From: a virus
Direction: 5' to 3' (one strand)
DNA length: 57,490 bases
Virus record (IMG/VR): IMGVR_UViG_3300042988_000148
Coordinates: 1-57,490 of that record
Shown piece after piece: positions 22,807 through 40,562 of this stretch; position 1 is the first letter of the stretch; every line of letters begins with the position of its first letter. Position numbers and translations under genes: made by a program. The notes beneath the pieces are model-generated. The model searched no databases. It was not told the origin of the DNA and worked only from the letters and a program-made list of their open reading frames with translations.

Positions 22807-23217
22807 TTACAGAACGTCTTCGTCGTCAGCAGAGATGTTGCTATCACTACCATACGCAACCAAGTCGGTGATGACCAACTTAGCAAGTGAAGGGCTAACG
22901 CCTTTCTTATTCTTGTAGGTCCAGCTATAAGCACCAACCAGACAGACAGCTTTGCTGCCGTTACCAATGTCTTCGACAATGTCGATGCCATCAGTATCAA
23001 ACGCCTTGATTGGTTTCTGAGACTTGCAAGTAATGTACTTACCTTGCTCTGGTTTATTTTCGGCATTCTCCTGAACAGAGATACCCATGTCTTCCAGTGC
23101 CGCTACAGCTTTGTCAGACAGATTACACAGATCAATGGTGTACGCATCAGCCATCTCATTCTTACGATTGATTTGTGCCCAATACACATCAGCTTTGATT
23201 TTCAACTTATCACTCAT
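22807..23217 (-). CDS. Single-stranded DNA-binding protein-like
   Basis: From ATG 23217 (behind CGAAGGAAACTCAA) the protein is 136 residues; an upstream in-frame ATG at 23280 lacks a site. It begins MSDKLKIKADVYWAQINRKN, is beta-rich with a Lys-containing centre (ITCKSQKPIKAFD), and ends in a short acidic tail (SADDEDVL). An OB-like beta barrel with an acidic tip resembles phage SSBs such as T7 gp2.5 in design. It is encoded between polymerase and exonuclease. Sequence alone does not prove DNA binding. Confidence 0.65.
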   Translation of the reverse strand: MSDKLKIKADVYWAQINRKNEMADAYTIDLCNLSDKAVAALEDMGISVQENAENKPEQGKYITCKSQKPIKAFDTDGIDIVEDIGNGSKAVCLVGAYSWTYKNKKGVSPSLAKLVITDLVAYGSDSNISADDEDVL

Positions 23218-31831: not shown

Positions 31832-31985
31832 GTTCACCCAATCGTTTCTTGCATTGAACAACACAGACACCACAGATATATTTACCAGAAGTGCCTGCAA
31901 AGAATTGCTTAGCTACGCTCTTTGGTGTGCCACAAAAGCTACACTTAGGATCGTGCTCCTTGAAAGGAACAATGTTATTTGTCAT
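31812..31985 (-). CDS. ClpX-type C4 zinc-finger microprotein
   Basis: The frame ATG 31985 to TAA 31812 encodes 57 residues: MTNNIVPFKEHDPKCSFCGT, then KSVAKQFFAGTSGKYICGVC and VVQCKKRLGEH. The C-S-F-C-G ... I-A/F-A-G ... Y-I-C-x-x-C-V pattern matches the N-terminal zinc domain of ClpX, here without any AAA+ module. In ClpX this domain dimerises and binds adaptors and some substrates (for example lambda O). A free-standing copy could act as an adaptor decoy. It overlaps the glycohydrolase stop by 4 nt and the HTH start by 20 nt. Confidence 0.8.
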   Translation of the reverse strand: MTNNIVPFKEHDPKCSFCGTPKSVAKQFFAGTSGKYICGVCVVQCKKRLGEHDTQYS

Positions 31986-32806
31986 ACGTTACCCATGTCA
32001 TAGAGTTTGTTGGCTGTGCTGAACAACACATCGTGCTGCATCAAAGCATCAAGCCAGCGTTGAGGAATGCTGTTGTACCCATAGATACGACCAGCAATCA
32101 TACCTGTCACAGCACCAACTGTATCAGCGTCACCGCCCTTGTTGACAGCGTGAATGAGAGCGTCTTCGAAGGACGATGTTGCTGCGACAGATTGCCACGC
32201 CGATGCATAACATCCCATCACTGTGCCGCTTTCTTCCTTGATGCCTTTGTCGAACAGGTCTTGGTTGCCTACGACAGCACCATCGAACAACTCTTCAGCC
32301 AGTGCAGCACTGTAGACAACACACTTACCAGTGCCGTGAGTGATGAGCCCACCAGCAACAGACTCAGCAATCGCCATCGTCTTGTTGTTGTGGTTGAACA
32401 GGATGTGTGGAGCCATTCTCATGATCGCACCGTTACCGTCTGTCATGAGAGCACAAGAGCCACCATAGGGACGCTTGTTGGACGATGCACTCAGCGCTTC
32501 AGCAGTAGTAGTTCCAATATCAAAACAATAATTGCGAGTACCGAAAGTTCCATTGTTTCTCCACTGTTTGAAGTTCTGTGCAATGATGCCGGGAGCAAAG
32601 CGTTTGTAAGCAAGGTAGCTGTCAGCAATAGCCATTGCCATAGCACCATCGTCTGTCCATTCACCCGGTGATGTTTCATGAACACCGCCACCGATCATAT
32701 CCTTGAGTGGAGAGCCAGTGTTTGGCTCAGTGAATTCCAGTGGGGCACCGAGTGCATCACCGATGAACAGACCCATGAACATACCGATAGCGTTGTCTTT
32801 ATTCAT
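31982..32806 (-). CDS. ADP-ribosylglycohydrolase (DraG/ARH family)
   Basis: The product is 274 residues from ATG 32806, which sits at good spacing from AGGAAATGTTA; ATG 32812 overlaps the site itself. Motifs are GLFIGDALGAPLEF, GEWTDDGAMAMAIADSYL (T-D-D metal ligands) and NKGGDADTVGAVTGMIAGRI (the second metal-binding GGDADT). It removes ADP-ribose from proteins or nucleic acids, or acts on related ribosides. It may reverse host or phage-made ADP-ribosylation. It is located just before the tRNA-Ile2 gene in the operon. Confidence 0.92.
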   Translation of the reverse strand: MNKDNAIGMFMGLFIGDALGAPLEFTEPNTGSPLKDMIGGGVHETSPGEWTDDGAMAMAIADSYLAYKRFAPGIIAQNFKQWRNNGTFGTRNYCFDIGTTTAEALSASSNKRPYGGSCALMTDGNGAIMRMAPHILFNHNNKTMAIAESVAGGLITHGTGKCVVYSAALAEELFDGAVVGNQDLFDKGIKEESGTVMGCYASAWQSVAATSSFEDALIHAVNKGGDADTVGAVTGMIAGRIYGYNSIPQRWLDALMQHDVLFSTANKLYDMGNV

Positions 32807-32834
32807 TAACATTTCCTGTGCTGAGTGTGTTGAT

Positions 32835-32984: not shown

Positions 32985-33785
32985 TCATTTAACGTGGATG
33001 AACGGTGTCACACCGCCAGCATTTGTAGTGGGCAGCTTACCGTCCCACTTCTTGATCGCCTCAAGCTCAACGTACTCTTTACCACCCTGTGCAGAGATGG
33101 CCTGTGCCTTGATGCGGATGGCATCAGCAATACCTTGTGCTTCAACACGATTGCGTTCAGCCTCAGCCTTAGCAAGCTCCACTTCTTTTTGCTTTGCAGC
33201 AATTTGGAAGTTGCGATTGGCAGCTTCTTTGATGGACGCTTCCAGTGCAGGATCTGTCACGAGGTTACGAACGTTAGCAGAGCGAACAAAGAACCAACCC
33301 TTAGCGCTTGCATCCAACTCAGCCTGCAACATCTTCACAATGTCAGCAGAGATTTCGTTGCGCTCAGTGTGGACAGTGGCGCTACCTCGTTTGGATACAG
33401 CGTTGTAGATAACCTCACGGGCTTGACGAGTGGCGTAGTTGAAACCGACACGCTCAGCGTCTTCACCCTTCACCTCAGAACGATCACCGGGCCAACGAGT
33501 CAGGATGGCAGGTGCCTTCGACGCATCAATCTGCAGGTAGATGTCAACGTCCATGTCAGCCAGTGTAATTTTGTCACTGGTCTGTGGCTTCATGTCATTC
33601 AGTTGTAGCGGCAGCTCTTTGCCTGAAACTTCAATGACTTTCTTGAACAGCGTGAAGTAGGTGCCGGGTGACAATGTCTGGTCTTTGACCTGACCCATCG
33701 TAGATTCAACACCTACGTTGCCAGTATCAATTTGTGTACAGGCAGCAAGGCTAGCAACAAGAGAAGCGAGAATAAGTTTTTTCAT
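32985..33785 (-). CDS. SPFH/prohibitin-like lipoprotein
   Basis: From ATG 33785 the protein is 266 residues. It begins with a lipoprotein signal, MKKLILASLVASLAACTQ (lipobox LAAC). The SPFH domain follows (KQTLSPGTYF-like strands, ITLADMDVDIYLQIDASKAP), with a long Ala/Glu/Lys-rich C-terminal coiled coil (KQKEVELAKAEAERNRVEAQ). Such proteins form ring-like membrane assemblies. A phage copy may protect or remodel the envelope or inhibit superinfection; this is inference. The longer in-frame start at 33923 contains a His/Cys-rich segment from the overlapping gene and is rejected. Confidence 0.85.
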   Translation of the reverse strand: MKKLILASLVASLAACTQIDTGNVGVESTMGQVKDQTLSPGTYFTLFKKVIEVSGKELPLQLNDMKPQTSDKITLADMDVDIYLQIDASKAPAILTRWPGDRSEVKGEDAERVGFNYATRQAREVIYNAVSKRGSATVHTERNEISADIVKMLQAELDASAKGWFFVRSANVRNLVTDPALEASIKEAANRNFQIAAKQKEVELAKAEAERNRVEAQGIADAIRIKAQAISAQGGKEYVELEAIKKWDGKLPTTNAGGVTPFIHVK

Positions 33786-33973
33786 AAAATTGCAATCGAA
33801 ACAAGGTTGAGTTGAACCACCAGCACAACAAGGATGGTGGTGATGATGAACGCTACCACAGGTAGGTGCTCTGACAAGAAGCGCTTGGTTGCCTTCTTGT
33901 CTTTGCTCGGCAGGTATGACCATGAGAAGTACATGATCAACGACATGATGACGAGTAGTGCAAGATGCTTCAT
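33782..33973 (-). CDS. Small two-TM protein paired with SPFH protein
   Basis: The 63-residue protein has hydrophobic segments at about 3-20 (HLALLVIMSLIMYFSWSY) and 38-60 (VVAFIITTILVVLVVQLNLV) with a basic loop between. It is ATGA-coupled to the SPFH gene, so the two probably act together at the inner membrane. No family is recognised. Confidence 0.7.
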   Translation of the reverse strand: MKHLALLVIMSLIMYFSWSYLPSKDKKATKRFLSEHLPVVAFIITTILVVLVVQLNLVSIAIL

Positions 33974-34806
33974 GCTGTCACCATCTCGTCAGCAATATTC
34001 CACAAGGCAGTGTTGATGCGCTGGTGTTCCTTGATCGAGTTGACTGGTCGAGCCTTACGCATCACACCCTCAGGATGTGTCTCGGTGATTGACCTGATCA
34101 TGGCATTGCCACGAATGACACCTTCTTGAATGCGATTGAACACGGTCCAAGCATCGTAGCCTTCGTCACCAACACGGCGGACATTCATCACATCCTTGAC
34201 GGTCTGTGCAACAGCATAAGCACCCTTGGTTTGACCTGTGTAGTCAGCCCAACGAGTAGCTACACCAGCAATTGCCATGTCGTGTGCCTCACCAGTGGTC
34301 AGGGTAAGACCACGCATCTTCTCAATGCGATCCATCAACAGGGGCAGGGTGGCTGTAGTGGTACGCAACATCTCTTCGAAGCCGTTCAATGCTTTGCTGT
34401 GATAGATGCGAGACTGGAAACCATCACCTGCCACGATGCCGTTAGAGCAGATGAAACGGAACAGACCAGCGAACAACTTCACAGAGCCTGTGCCATCGTG
34501 AGAGTTGTACAAGATGATTTCAGGACGAACATCACCAGTCTCTGCAATGTCATGAGCACTGCTGAAAGCAAGCATGTGGGCAGTGTGTTCCGGTGAAGCT
34601 TTGCGACTACGCTTTTGTGCAGCCTGTGTTGGGAAGTAGCCATAGTCCGCCATGATGGGCAGCACATCGCTGGTTGTGAGGGATACGTAACGATCTGACA
34701 AGCGCTCAGCTTTGGTTGTGCTGAACACGGCAGGAGCACGATGTTGAATCTGTTCGGGTGTCAGGATGGAGTTGTCAGCGTTGCGAGAGAAGATAACGTG
34801 AGCCAT
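33970..34806 (-). CDS. DUF932-family phage/plasmid-like protein
   Basis: The 278-residue protein matches DUF932: MAHVIFSRNADNSILTPEQ, RPEIILYNSHDGTGSVKLFA, GLFRFICSNGIVAGDGFQ and the C-terminal WTVFNRIQEGVIRGN. These are conserved landmarks of a phage and plasmid family of unknown biochemical role, often near replication or early genes. A promoter lies just upstream (-10 at 34857-34862), so it is first in a sub-operon. The site TAAGGAAACACA precedes the start. Confidence 0.85.
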   Translation of the reverse strand: MAHVIFSRNADNSILTPEQIQHRAPAVFSTTKAERLSDRYVSLTTSDVLPIMADYGYFPTQAAQKRSRKASPEHTAHMLAFSSAHDIAETGDVRPEIILYNSHDGTGSVKLFAGLFRFICSNGIVAGDGFQSRIYHSKALNGFEEMLRTTTATLPLLMDRIEKMRGLTLTTGEAHDMAIAGVATRWADYTGQTKGAYAVAQTVKDVMNVRRVGDEGYDAWTVFNRIQEGVIRGNAMIRSITETHPEGVMRKARPVNSIKEHQRINTALWNIADEMVTA

Positions 34807-34856: not shown

Positions 34857-34886
34857 AGTGTAAAGGCTTTTGAAAGGTGTTGTCAA
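34857..34886 (-). promoter_or_regulatory. Leftward sigma70-like promoter
   Basis: On the minus strand TTGACA (34881-34886) is followed by 18 nt and TACACT (34857-34862). It lies right after the terminator of the preceding gene and drives the DUF932 gene and onward. The spacing equals that of the other early promoters. Confidence 0.65.
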
Positions 34887-36632: not shown

Positions 36633-36817
36633 GCTTGTTCTTTCTTCTCAAAGCCTGTGCAATTCTGCAACCAGACAGGATCAAAGTTGATGGGCCAGAA
36701 GAACCACCCATTACGTACACCGTGTGCATTGCCTACAACTTCAGCTTCGCCATTAGCACAGCGAGAGTGACAGTTTCCGGGAAGATCACGACGATGTTTA
36801 CATTCGTAGCAATTCAT
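36629..36817 (-). CDS. Conserved phage zinc-binding-type protein
   Basis: The 62-residue protein has MNCYECKHRRDLPGNCHSRC, then NAHGVRNGWFFWPINFDPVW and LQNCTGFEKK. The C-x-x-C-x-H-R-R ... H-S-x-C ... N-G-W-F-x-x-P-x-N-F-D-P-V-W-L pattern is a recurrent family in phages of Proteobacteria. Cysteines and histidines suggest a metal site. The function is unknown. Confidence 0.85.
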   Translation of the reverse strand: MNCYECKHRRDLPGNCHSRCANGEAEVVGNAHGVRNGWFFWPINFDPVWLQNCTGFEKKEQA

Positions 36818-36868
36818 TTTGTTTTCCTACGGAGAAGGACGTTAGTCCAACAACTCAACAGCGAGTCA

Positions 36869-37268: not shown

Positions 37269-37655
37269 TTAGTTCCAGACGTTGATGCTAGGGCGACTAC
37301 TGTCGTTTGTTGTCAGTGCCACAAGACGGGCAAGACCGACAGGATGCTCACCGTGACGATGCACAAATGTGCTGTACTTGTATGGGTTGTAGGTGATGGC
37401 AGAGCCATTGGTGGCGACCATGTCGATGGTGACGTTGTCACTGCTACTGTCAGTCCAGTCACCGACAACACCGGCATGGACATTCTTGCGTTGCTCTTTC
37501 AAGACACGCTGACGACCCGCCTCAGACACCTTGAACTTGGCATCGAAAAGCAAAGCTTGGTCACGATGTGCAATGACACGACCTTTCATCGCACCCTCAA
37601 GAGCTTTAATGCTAAAGCATTTCTTATGCAGGTTGAAGTAGACGAATACTTTCAT
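37269..37655 (-). CDS. Conserved phage protein, KVFVYFNLHKKCFS type
   Basis: The 128-residue protein starts MKVFVYFNLHKKCFSIKALE and has GRVIAHRDQALLFDAKFKVS, EAGRQRVLKEQRKNVHAGVV, SAITYNPYKYSTFVHR and an Arg/Ser end. This is a common family in phages and some plasmids, of unknown function. It is the first gene behind the 37939 promoter, with a long untranslated leader. Its ribosome site is in a small hairpin (37662-37674). Confidence 0.8.
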   Translation of the reverse strand: MKVFVYFNLHKKCFSIKALEGAMKGRVIAHRDQALLFDAKFKVSEAGRQRVLKEQRKNVHAGVVGDWTDSSSDNVTIDMVATNGSAITYNPYKYSTFVHRHGEHPVGLARLVALTTNDSSRPSINVWN

Positions 37656-37661
37656 GTGTGT

Positions 37662-37674
37662 TTCCTTTCAGGAA
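37662..37674 (-). promoter_or_regulatory. Shine-Dalgarno hairpin, TTCCT-GAA-AGGAA form
   Basis: The minus strand reads TTCCT-GAA-AGGAA just before the 37655 start, so the AAGGAA site is the 3' arm of a 5-bp stem with a GAA triloop. It has the same architecture as the hairpins at 38775, 39093, 39399 and 39602, but different stem bases. Confidence 0.65.
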
Positions 37675-37932
37675 GGTTGGCTTGATATAAACCCTGTAAC
37701 ACTGTGTCACAAGGCTTATGAAAGCCACATCGTCTAGCGCCGACCCCAACGCCACGATGTGATTCCTATGCACATTATCATCCTCATGTGCTATGAGCAG
37801 TGTAAGACGTTACGTGCTTACAATCACGCTGATCTATTTCAGGCGGCAACATGTTTTGTTGTACATGTTGCATCCATACTGATATCACGCTTGCTTTTTA
37901 AAGAACAATTTGGTGATGCCGATGCATCGATG
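37675..37932 (-). other. Long structured untranslated leader
   Basis: About 260 nt lie between the inferred transcription start (near 37932) and the hairpin before the 128-residue gene. No supported gene is present. Two inverted repeats are visible: 37726-37733 with 37754-37761 (CACATCGT / ACGATGTG) and 37847-37854 with 37863-37870 (CAACATGT / ACATGTTG). The region may be a regulatory RNA or attenuator. Confidence 0.5.
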
Positions 37933-37938
37933 GCCTCA

Positions 37939-37968
37939 ATTATGCAGACCTTTACAAAACCCTGTCAA
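37939..37968 (-). promoter_or_regulatory. Leftward early promoter
   Basis: Minus strand: TTGACA at 37963-37968, 18-nt spacer, CATAAT at 37939-37944, then TGAGGCCA. Spacer and downstream bases match the promoters at 39136 and 39646 closely (GGGTTTT...AGGTC in the spacer), showing a repeated early promoter unit. Confidence 0.8.
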
Positions 37969-38031
37969 GCAATACCTGACCATTTTGTAGGGGCTTTGTG
38001 AAGGGGGCTGTATTGCTACAACCCTCATGCA

Positions 38032-38769
38032 TTATGCACTGATGTACTTAGCACCAGTGCCATGTGCCACAACAGCAATCGACTTGGCTTTCACGCTGGT
38101 ACCAGCACACAATCCGCACTGTTCGCATGTCGTCTTCGCACCGCCTTCTGGTGTAGCAGGACACACAATCTCGCTACCCTTGACTACGTCATTGACGCTA
38201 GTGACAATGCGGAATGTACGACGACCGACTGACCAAGACAGCGAAGCTGCAGCGACAGACTCCACGCTTTCCATGTAAAGCGATGCATCGAATGCAGCAC
38301 CTTCGGTGTTAGCTTGGTGACTGTAACCGGTGTGACCTTCAGCTTCGCTGAGTAGCTCATTCCAGACCGATGCAGGCACTGCAGCACCATCACCGTAGGT
38401 GCCGATTCTCACCATACGACCCTTACCGACAGCGGCAAGGCTTTCAGCCTTAGGATATTTGCCAGCGACAAAGCCTTTGTAAACAATGACCGGGCCTTGA
38501 CCAATGACGACATAGCATGAACGATTCTTTGCCAGCTTCGCTGTAGGGTCATCGGTGGCAGTGCCACGGTGTGGACAATCGCCACAAATAGCCCTGTCAG
38601 CACCGGTTTTGGATGCATCACGTGGGTCCATATCGCTACGGATGATGTATGTCTGCACCATGTCGGCTGTCTTGGTATTGCTTGACTTCGTCAAGGCGAT
38701 GGCGACAATTGGGCTGCCATCGATCAGCGATGGGCCTTCATATACTACGTATCCGGTTGGTTTGCTCAT
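38032..38769 (-). CDS. Conserved phage protein with two Cys clusters
   Basis: The 245-residue protein starts MSKPTGYVVYEGPSLIDGSP. It has CGDCPHRG near residue 62, RSCYVVIGQGP, and near the end TTCEQCGLCAGTSVKAKSIA. The paired Cys clusters suggest metal binding. It belongs to a phage family (DUF7227-like) of unknown function. It follows its own promoter (38819-38848) and a Shine-Dalgarno hairpin at 38775-38787. Confidence 0.8.
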   Translation of the reverse strand: MSKPTGYVVYEGPSLIDGSPIVAIALTKSSNTKTADMVQTYIIRSDMDPRDASKTGADRAICGDCPHRGTATDDPTAKLAKNRSCYVVIGQGPVIVYKGFVAGKYPKAESLAAVGKGRMVRIGTYGDGAAVPASVWNELLSEAEGHTGYSHQANTEGAAFDASLYMESVESVAAASLSWSVGRRTFRIVTSVNDVVKGSEIVCPATPEGGAKTTCEQCGLCAGTSVKAKSIAVVAHGTGAKYISA

Positions 38770-38774
38770 GTTGT

Positions 38775-38787
38775 TTACCTTCGGTAA
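38775..38787 (-). promoter_or_regulatory. Shine-Dalgarno hairpin, TTACC-GAA-GGTAA form
   Basis: Minus strand TTACC-GAA-GGTAA, with the GAAGGT site inside the stem-loop, immediately before ATG 38769. It is identical to copies at 39093-39105 and 39602-39614. Confidence 0.75.
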
Positions 38788-38818
38788 GTGACAGCGACCA
38801 TCGCCGTCGATGCTTTCA

Positions 38819-38848
38819 ATTGTACGTCAAGTCAAATAACCAAGTCAA
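38819..38848 (-). promoter_or_regulatory. Leftward early promoter
   Basis: Minus strand TTGACT at 38843-38848, 18-nt spacer, TACAAT at 38819-38824, then TGAAAGC. The spacer sequence differs from the other early promoters, but the hexamers and spacing are conserved. It drives the 245-residue gene. Confidence 0.75.
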
Positions 38849-38856
38849 GCGAAGGG

Positions 38857-39087
38857 TTATTTCGAAGCCTTCAACGCAACGAAGTTGCCACGGCGGTACA
38901 CAGTTGCAACGTCATAGCATGCAGCCCATGTCACAGCTTCGCTGAATGTGAAGGTGTAATGACGCTTGGCAAAGCCTTGACCGATGACAGCAAAGCCAAA
39001 GGCTTTTTTGAGCATCAAAGCGATTTCGTCTTGCACCATGTACAAAGCAATGGCGGCTGATGTGAGGGAAATGAATGCATAAATCAT
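38857..39087 (-). CDS. Small membrane-anchored protein
   Basis: From ATG 39087 it is 76 residues: MIYAFISLTSAAIALYMVQD forms a TM helix, followed by a basic aromatic domain (KAFGFAVIGQGFAKRHYTFT) and VYRRGNFVALKASK. It is preceded by the hairpin ribosome site at 39093-39105 and by the promoter at 39136-39165, which makes a very short leader. The function is unknown. Confidence 0.7.
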   Translation of the reverse strand: MIYAFISLTSAAIALYMVQDEIALMLKKAFGFAVIGQGFAKRHYTFTFSEAVTWAACYDVATVYRRGNFVALKASK

Positions 39088-39092
39088 GATGT

Positions 39093-39105
39093 TTACCTTC
39101 GGTAA
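39093..39105 (-). promoter_or_regulatory. Shine-Dalgarno hairpin, TTACC-GAA-GGTAA form
   Basis: This is identical to the copy at 38775, with ACAT between hairpin and ATG. The stem covers the GAAGGT ribosome site. Confidence 0.75.
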
Positions 39106-39135
39106 GTGTCGCAGCAAAATCGCTGCATGGCCTCA

Positions 39136-39165
39136 ATTATACAGACCTTCGAAAAACCCTGTCAA
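39136..39165 (-). promoter_or_regulatory. Leftward early promoter, consensus
   Basis: Minus strand TTGACA at 39160-39165, 18-nt spacer (GGGTTTTTCGAAGGTCTG), TATAAT at 39136-39141, then TGAGGCCA. Both hexamers are perfect sigma70 consensus, making this the strongest promoter in the window. Confidence 0.9.
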
Positions 39166-39191
39166 GTGCAGGGTCTTTCAAAAGCTCTGCT

Positions 39192-39395
39192 TCAATACGC
39201 AATGTCTGTATCGATTGTGAGCATCACGGCATTATGCAACGCATAGCTACGTTGCAATTGACGACCGATGATGGCATTGACAGTGAAACTGTCTGTCGCT
39301 TTTTGCTCAGCAAGCAAAGCTTGAATTCGGTCACGGATGATGATTTCAAGCTCATAAGCTAAAGCTTTGTCGATGGTGATGTTGACGTTTTGCAT
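39192..39395 (-). CDS. Small helical protein, unknown
   Basis: The 67-residue protein (MQNVNITIDKALAYELEIII, then RDRIQALLAEQKATDSFTV) has a short beta start and a long helix. It follows the hairpin at 39399-39411, which overlaps the stop of the upstream gene. The function is unknown. Confidence 0.7.
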   Translation of the reverse strand: MQNVNITIDKALAYELEIIIRDRIQALLAEQKATDSFTVNAIIGRQLQRSYALHNAVMLTIDTDIAY

Positions 39396-39398
39396 TGT

Positions 39399-39411
39399 TT
39401 ACTTTCAGTAA
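39399..39411 (-). promoter_or_regulatory. Shine-Dalgarno hairpin, covarying TTACT-GAA-AGTAA form
   Basis: Minus strand TTACT-GAA-AGTAA. Compared with TTACC-GAA-GGTAA both sides of the closing pair have changed (C-G to T-A), so pairing is kept. It contains the TGA stop of the upstream gene (39405-39407) in its loop region. Confidence 0.75.
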
Positions 39412-39596
39412 GTGAAACCGACGACGACGACTTTGTCGGCCTTGACGTAGATGCAACGGCAAATGTCTTCGACATCCTTCAGCTCAAACGACTTCGTCGT
39501 CTTGTCGTATGCACCTTTGATGTACACCTTGGCGGCATCGGCTTTCCGTTTGACGTAGTCACCGGGTTTGACGTTTCGCAGAGTGATGTTTTGCAT
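39405..39596 (-). CDS. Conserved small protein, KPGDYVKRKADA type
   Basis: The 63-residue protein MQNITLRNVKPGDYVKRKAD continues AAKVYIKGAYDKTTKSFELK, DVEDICRCIYVKADKVVVVG and ends FTY. The I-T-L-R-x-V-K-x-G-x-Y-V-K-R-K-x-D-A ... V-F/V-G-F-T-Y pattern is a widespread small SH3-like phage and bacterial family of unknown function. It is the first gene of the leftward operon, behind the 39646 promoter and the 39602 hairpin. Confidence 0.85.
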   Translation of the reverse strand: MQNITLRNVKPGDYVKRKADAAKVYIKGAYDKTTKSFELKDVEDICRCIYVKADKVVVVGFTY

Positions 39597-39601
39597 GATG
39601 T

Positions 39602-39614
39602 TTACCTTCGGTAA
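39602..39614 (-). promoter_or_regulatory. Shine-Dalgarno hairpin, TTACC-GAA-GGTAA form
   Basis: Third identical copy, 5 nt before ATG 39596. It is the first translation-control element of the leftward operon. Confidence 0.75.
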
Positions 39615-39645
39615 GTTGTGACAGCACCGCTGCTGTCTGGCCTCA

Positions 39646-39675
39646 ATTGTAGCGACCTTGCAAAAGCCCTGTCAA
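39646..39675 (-). promoter_or_regulatory. Leftward early promoter, most upstream
   Basis: Minus strand TTGACA at 39670-39675, 18-nt spacer (GGGCTTTTGCAAGGTCGC), TACAAT at 39646-39651, then TGAGGCCA. It is a close relative of the 39136 and 37939 promoters and starts the leftward operon. Confidence 0.85.
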
Positions 39676-39865: not shown

Positions 39866-40289
39866 TCACATGCGTTAACGTGTTGATTTCATTACACATA
39901 TGCATCATGCGGTAAAAATACACACACACAAGCGTATTACCCAGCGCTGTAAACACGCATGCATGATCGCCTGCGCTGCACGTGCCTAAGGCGGGGGTGG
40001 GCGTGGGCCACCGGGGGTACCCGCGCTAGTTGTATACACGCATTTCCACAGAACAGGTTTTTTAGTCTGTTAACCACTACCAATTCTAGCAACCTACACC
40101 ACCTATAATGCTGCCCCACCAACACAGCAAAACAGCGCTACAATGAGTTTTCACAGACAACCAAGGGCTAGGTAGCTCCACTACGCGATAGCGCCCTACA
40201 GAGCCTTTAAAGCCTTCACCACTCATACAGGTGTTGCAAAGCTACAACACTGTATGCAATTACAGTATTGACAAGATTGGCAATAACGG
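39866..40289. other. Gene-free control region, possible origin part 1
   Basis: No supported gene is present. It has a CGTTAACG palindrome near 39873, a CA-repeat and a GC-rich block (about 39985-40030). It also has two sites one mismatch from the DnaA-box consensus TTWTNCACA: ATTTCCACA at 40042-40050 and GTTTTCACA at 40147-40155. A TTGACA at 40268-40273 could be a rightward -35, but no convincing -10 lies at normal spacing. Confidence 0.45.
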
Positions 40290-40562
40290 TAAAACTATAG
40301 GCAATGAGGGGGTAGGGGGAGTGATATAGCTCTATAGAGCCCTATAGCAATATAGAGTCCTTATAGAACAATTAACCATATAGACAATAACAACCTATAT
40401 AGATATAGTCTATACAGTCTATATAACCCCTAAAGCAATCTCGACTATAAACATTTTTGTTTCTCTTTTTGTTTCTTTCTTTTATTCTTCTTCTTGTTGT
40501 AACTTAGTGATATACTCTTTTATAGCAAGCCTACACAATATCAATAGGCAGCTATAAAGACT
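40290..40562. other. TATAG-dense A+T-rich tract, possible origin or promoter region
   Basis: About ten TATAG pentamers occur in 270 nt, many within CTATAG-type contexts, plus TATATA and TATAC variants. A pyrimidine-rich run lies at about 40453-40500. An extended -10 (TGATATACT, 40508-40516) could start rightward transcription. There is no gene. It might be an unwinding element next to the near-DnaA boxes. Confidence 0.45.

Follow-up and report, generated by a model that had tools for sequence, protein, structure and literature searches.

Transcription is generally regarded as the main level of control over phage early genes and, to our knowledge, multi-gene translational regulons such as that of T4 RegA are few. 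Among the described translational controls, the phage operators that sequester the Shine-Dalgarno (SD) sequence, such as the MS2 coat-protein hairpin and the operator of T4/RB69 gene 43, occur at one or few sites per genome and have a known binder. The hairpins described here resemble them in enclosing the ribosome site and in having a loop that is more conserved than the stem, and they share the general features of SD-sequestering operators, with the SD in a hairpin arm by the start codon and pairing kept through compensatory change. They differ from the MS2 and gene 43 operators in that up to ~8 near-identical short hairpins mark an early module and in that the binder is only putative. The T4 RegA regulon is alike in that a single control reaches many early genes through their initiation regions, but RegA sites are A+U-rich and without clear structure (PMC3014915), whereas here structure, and not an unstructured A+U-rich site over the AUG, is the conserved feature. 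In contrast to CsrA/RsmA targets, the GGA lies in the 3' arm rather than exposed in the loop, which is GAA. The promoter early stem-loop (PeSL) cassettes, described by the titles of the papers on them as composite promoter-terminator motifs of T4-like myoviruses, are similar as repeated units of early promoter and stem-loop between small early genes; as far as those titles allow the comparison, our hairpins differ in holding the SD, in lacking a U-run and in belonging to a non-T4 lineage. The SD hairpins do not appear to belong to the PeSL, RegA or CsrA systems, and their nearest counterparts are the SD-sequestering translational operators. Literature searches for a described equivalent, in which the PeSL papers were represented by their titles, found none.

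The DNA analysed here, which we call the window, is an IMG/VR virus record of 57,490 bases with 46% G+C. The original prediction placed five 13-nt hairpins before five leftward ORFs, and their coordinates were verified on the minus strand. They are listed here with a degenerate sixth copy:

39602 to 39614, minus strand: SD hairpin TTACC-GAA-GGTAA, preceding the 63-aa ORF 39405-39596 (ATG at 39596)
39399 to 39411, minus strand: SD hairpin TTACT-GAA-AGTAA, preceding the 67-aa ORF 39192-39395 (ATG at 39395)
39093 to 39105, minus strand: SD hairpin TTACC-GAA-GGTAA, preceding the 76-aa ORF 38857-39087 (ATG at 39087)
38775 to 38787, minus strand: SD hairpin TTACC-GAA-GGTAA, preceding the 245-aa ORF 38032-38769 (ATG at 38769)
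37662 to 37674, minus strand: SD hairpin TTCCT-GAA-AGGAA, preceding the 128-aa ORF 37269-37655 of the Phage_L5_gp82 family (ATG at 37655)
36823 to 36835, minus strand: degenerate sixth SD hairpin TCTCC-GTA-GGAAA with one C.A mismatch, preceding a 62-aa ORF that starts at 36817

All five hairpins lie on the minus strand 3-6 nt ahead of the ATG. The window holds 22 matches to the motif with at most three mismatches, as against 9.0 in dinucleotide shuffles (none of 100 reaches 22). That the hairpin is common to early genes was borne out, but its limitation to five starts was not, given the sixth copy and relatives with up to ~8 copies each. The stem at 37662, which had been called fully different, has only two of its five pairs changed.

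Scanning IMG/VR for the pattern, with the loop left open, extends the family to at least about 240 distinct hairpin-preceded starts in at least 56 loci of one lineage of uncultured aquatic phages, many of the matches listed being multi-copy loci; these scans demanded pairing for two stem types and are thereby biased, and four other sides supply unbiased support. Most early genes in the phage family start behind an SD hairpin, and the hairpins are restricted to one early module of 2-6 kb per genome. Among the matches listed, nearly all the hairpin-rich loci have genes in common with the window, terminase and portal among them, and in those loci no spread to unrelated phages was seen; 257 Gb of bacterial genomes gave only 43 scattered single matches. 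The lineage is that of ctYwJ313 (MW202701, from Manatee Spring), the nearest named genome, and its genomes measure about 55-60 kb. Limnohabitans phage DC31 and Curvibacter phage P26059A have the DNA polymerase in common with the lineage and are more distant; from such named neighbours we would guess that its hosts are betaproteobacteria. The closest named phages lack this hairpin form. MW202701, itself without the GAA form, carries GTTC-TAYA-GGAC/T ahead of two or three early ORFs (upstream of 44398, 44595 and 45416), possibly a related, diverged SD hairpin with G-U pairs.

That the fold rather than the sequence is conserved, and that it encloses the ribosome site, was the central claim of the original prediction, and it holds in several independent comparisons. 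When starts are picked only by the context AA-AC[AT]-ATG, within the 56 loci, each holding at least three copies, the inner three pairs are formed in 195 of 414, where ~6.5 would be expected at random; some of the starts counted as unpaired have a tetraloop form, TTCC-TAAA-GGAA. The same leaders yielded stems outside the search pattern, namely TTACT/AGTAA, TTTCC/GGAAA, ATCCT/AGGAT, CACCT/AGGTG and TATCT/AGATA. In orthologous leaders the stems differ between relatives and pairing is retained: across 35 leaders from three ortholog groups, a set that represents the triloop form only (tetraloop forms, three hairpin-less leaders and some near-duplicates were omitted), 97.1% of cells are paired, and 34 cells are changed on both sides, compared with 12.8 in shuffles (0/500) and 0-1 in slid controls. 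Pair-breaking substitutions in relatives, which had been named as the sign against the fold, are mostly absent, only the outermost pair being relaxed: among 194 hairpins, breaks at stem positions 1-4, counted from the loop, are very rare and position 5 is relaxed (33/194), while the loop is GAA in 169. Gene by gene, the leaders of orthologs of the 76-aa ORF (window hairpin 39093) keep the hairpin in 16 of 19, with varied stems; relatives of the 245-aa gene keep it in nine at 88-91% protein identity and lack it at 41-64%; and it is absent in about 8 of 38 orthologs of the 128-aa family. Neither the ortholog leaders nor the larger set of 194 hairpins contained G-U intermediates, so part of the stem variation may come from the spread of entire cassettes instead of from stepwise mutation. 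Simple descent of one repeated sequence is ruled out by orthologous leaders that use different yet paired stems, and a chance origin by the window shuffles, the start-context counts and the ortholog covariation. We hold it as almost certain that the element is a selected, RNA-level SD hairpin.

The covariation noted originally, a double change from C-G to T-A in the stem, is indeed a paired change, and can be refined, as it tracks the use of a loop TGA as upstream stop codon. A T at the loop-closing position produces the triplet TGA, and in the hairpin at 39399 to 39411 this loop TGA (39405-39407) terminates the upstream ORF 39405-39596. Of the 38 hairpins of the TACC/GGTA class, in which the loop TGA is missing, 31 are promoter-linked; those of the TACT/AGTA class are promoter-linked in 0 of 6, and the loop stop ends the upstream ORF in 4 of 6; in the TCCT/AGGA class the loop TGA ends the upstream ORF in 62 of 147. 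Since stop and promoter linkage differ in this way by stem class, the double change is best read as a stop codon plus its compensating base.

The promoter-linked hairpins stand in a recurrent leader, the window features of which are the following, together with the promoter of a neighbouring DUF932 gene:

39646 to 39675, minus strand: sigma-70-type promoter TTGACA-18-TACAAT
39620 to 39637, minus strand: 5'-terminal leader hairpin GACAGCA-GCGG-TGCTGTC
39136 to 39165, minus strand: consensus promoter TTGACA-18-TATAAT (12/12)
39111 to 39126, minus strand: 5'-terminal leader hairpin GCAGCG-ATTT-TGCTGC
38819 to 38848, minus strand: promoter TTGACT-18-TACAAT
38790 to 38808, minus strand: 5'-terminal leader hairpin GACGGCGA-TGG-TCGCTGTC
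37939 to 37968, minus strand: promoter TTGACA-18-CATAAT, with a long leader
34857 to 34886, minus strand: promoter TTGACA-18-TACACT of the DUF932 gene 33970-34806

The hairpin module thus has four near-consensus sigma-70 promoters with 18-nt spacers (39675, 39165, 38848 and 37968), and a fifth (34886) precedes the DUF932 gene. The three promoters closest to SD hairpins share one plan, in which the promoter is followed by a first hairpin where the transcript is predicted to begin, then after a few nt by the SD hairpin and the ATG, the last lying 48-49 nt past the -10 box. Among 40 promoter-linked leaders from the relatives and the window, this distance is mostly 47-49 nt and the first hairpin has a stem of at least 5 bp in 34, compared with 7.4 in shuffles. 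Only this first hairpin matches the ompA-type 5' mRNA-stabilising stem-loops; the SD hairpin is a separate second element. The remaining window hairpins are located inside operons. As a side observation, the three 5'-terminal hairpins of the window (39111-39126, 39620-39637 and 38790-38808) have very different sequences and are still paired.

The stem is also a perfect DNA dyad, G-U pairs are absent and the same cassette stands ahead of unrelated genes, all of which would suit a palindrome acting as DNA, either as a repressor operator or as a recombination seam between genes. Against this, every correctly oriented palindrome with an R-N-A loop in 15 genomes (771 kb, scanned for four stem types and the loops GAA, AAA, ATA or GTA) coincides with a ribosome site, the start codon being GTG in four cases; the other matches either read these sites on the opposite strand or, in a few cases, have unrelated loops. 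Moreover, several different dyads are in use and copies lie inside operons, distant from promoters, and we regard a DNA-level role as very improbable. The DUF932 gene serves as an internal control: its leader has a 5' inverted repeat, GGCAATGTTGCC, and no SD hairpin, and a stem of at least 5 bp was found in 0 of 21 distinct orthologous leaders despite a similar promoter and AGGAAACA ahead of the ATG. The hairpin thus belongs to particular genes and does not come with the SD as such. A transcription terminator was also considered and rejected, there being no U-run after the SD hairpins and none listed at these sites by a terminator scan.

In isolation the hairpins are weak, with predicted stabilities at 37 C of -1.8 (TTACC), -0.1 (TTACT) and -2.3 kcal/mol (TTCCT). 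The hairpin at 39602 to 39614 is predicted to fold in its leader context (pair probability 0.96 at 37 C), and that at 39399 to 39411, weak alone, has a pair probability of 0.35. A thermosensitive switch had been suggested originally as a possibility, and a short A+U-rich stem over the SD, with the isolated TTACC hairpin going from -1.8 at 37 C to -5.1 kcal/mol at 5 C, would fit one that opens on warming. Its sharp form finds no support, as the pairing computed in context hardly changes between 5 and 37 C, without cooperative melting, and an Rfam search matched the hairpins to no thermometer family (fourU, ROSE) or other known RNA family; such a switch now seems scarcely credible.

By position and conservation the hairpins are, on the evidence of sequence, translational operators. 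Each comprises a helix of 4-5 bp and an R-N-A triloop, carries the SD in its 3' arm and stands directly ahead of an early-gene start codon, where it would lower new initiation; an arriving 30S subunit would open it and, inside operons, so would a ribosome ending at the loop TGA. A trans-acting RNA-binding factor would recognise the hairpins and shut off the early set together. Such recognition appears most likely in view of hairpins that combine low stability (-0.1 to -2.3 kcal/mol) with a strictly conserved helix and loop common to a set of genes. By the general rule of de Smit and van Duin, hairpins this weak reportedly hardly inhibit a strong SD alone, which counts against the operator reading. 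Searches with tblastn profiles and family models for a regulator among the lineage-common genes brought out no candidate; they returned an HNH-type protein, an SSB-like protein beside the DNA polymerase and unknowns, none of which we propose as the regulator. The RegA profile (PF01818) matched 0 of 17 records, with a control search equally silent, and the CsrA profile matched 0 of 17 phage records with a working control, which leaves room for a CsrA of the host. Taking SD-hairpin operators and the putative trans-acting factor together, we put this full reading forward tentatively, at close to an even chance.

Its main rival dispenses with a protein: the hairpin would act as a passive gate that slightly lowers independent initiation and, through translational coupling, balances neighbouring small genes, a ribosome stopping at the loop TGA melting the hairpin and restarting at the ATG ~14 nt on. 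The stem classes set out above speak for such coupling, in that the loop stop often ends the upstream ORF in the TCCT/AGGA and TACT/AGTA hairpins, as it does at 39405-39407 of the window, and the TACC/GGTA hairpins, with no loop stop, are mostly promoter-linked. However, free leaders that follow a promoter and have no ORF upstream hold many of the hairpins, and the loop of the TACC class stays R-N-A though no stop codon is needed there, and we consider the passive gate rather unlikely. Less probable still is a positive element, in which a weak hairpin keeps the SD from stronger misfolds or nucleases and so allows fast early translation in a new host. The low stability would suit it, as would the strong 5'-terminal hairpin that usually adjoins in promoter-linked leaders, a shape that stabilises mRNA elsewhere, but the DUF932 gene, in the same operon and with the same kind of leader, does without the SD hairpin in every lineage examined. 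The RNA element is tiny and can be counted, and it singles out the early genes that make up a set; the internal controls (the hairpin-free DUF932 neighbour and the stop-linked stem variants) make its function directly testable.

The long leader of the gene starting at 37655 holds two further elements:

37681 to 37832, minus strand: 152-nt structured RNA of the leader, covarying and unmatched in Rfam, immediately 5' of the SD hairpin at 37662
37895 to 37906, minus strand: boxA-like motif GTTCTTTAAAAA, almost unchanged across the aligned leaders

The ~290 nt that separate the promoter at 37968 from the hairpin at 37662 (leader 37658-37968) are 72-87% identical in about fifteen relatives, and the gene downstream varies among them. 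A covariance model finds the RNA once per genome in most of the lineage. In an alignment of 37 distinct sequences fitted to that model, 96.2% of cells pair, 39 of 43 pairs have two-sided changes, and 312 cells are changed on both sides, compared with 75.6 in shuffles and at most 57 in slid controls; a structure-free MAFFT alignment of 15 sequences contains a 5-bp helix in which every pair has two-sided changes. The RNA, which is probably pseudoknotted, adds a strongly covarying structured RNA missing from Rfam. In the window the SD hairpin at 37662 lies directly 3' of it, and 60 of 66 copies have an SD hairpin and start codon within 39 nt downstream. When loci were retrieved solely by the leader-RNA motif, SD hairpins were present in each of the 22 containing the RNA; of ten chance loci, 8 have no hairpin and 2 have one of unrelated loop. 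The RNA was not found in three genomes that keep SD hairpins (G005, G011 and G023), so the two elements are separable.

The motif GTTCTTTAAAAA, which we take to be boxA-like by its resemblance to the consensus, precedes the structured RNA by 42-62 nt in most relatives, and in some it reads CTCTTTAA. A boxA-like motif followed by structured RNA recalls the antitermination leaders (rrn boxA, lambda nut and HK022 put), but the RNA here has its own covarying fold, matches nothing in Rfam and ends at an SD hairpin. Because the boxA-like motif heads the leader and a long leftward operon lies behind it, our guess is that the RNA might serve antitermination of that operon. The composite picture, in which a regulon of SD triloop hairpins with a putative RNA-binding repressor is joined by a boxA-linked, probably pseudoknotted ~150-nt new class of RNA acting in antitermination, is possible, though we lean against it as a whole.

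Elsewhere in the window, a 136-aa protein beside the DNA polymerase (22807-23217, minus strand) has an acidic tail (DDEDVL), is conserved across the lineage and has no family match; it looks like a single-stranded DNA-binding protein. The early and structural modules diverge on either side of an A+T-rich intergenic stretch (40280-40520) that has many CTATATAG-like repeats and may serve as an origin or for regulation. The leftward operon also encodes an ADP-ribosylglycohydrolase and an SPFH/band-7 protein (31982-32812 and 32985-33923, minus strand), a seemingly unusual cargo for a phage of this size.
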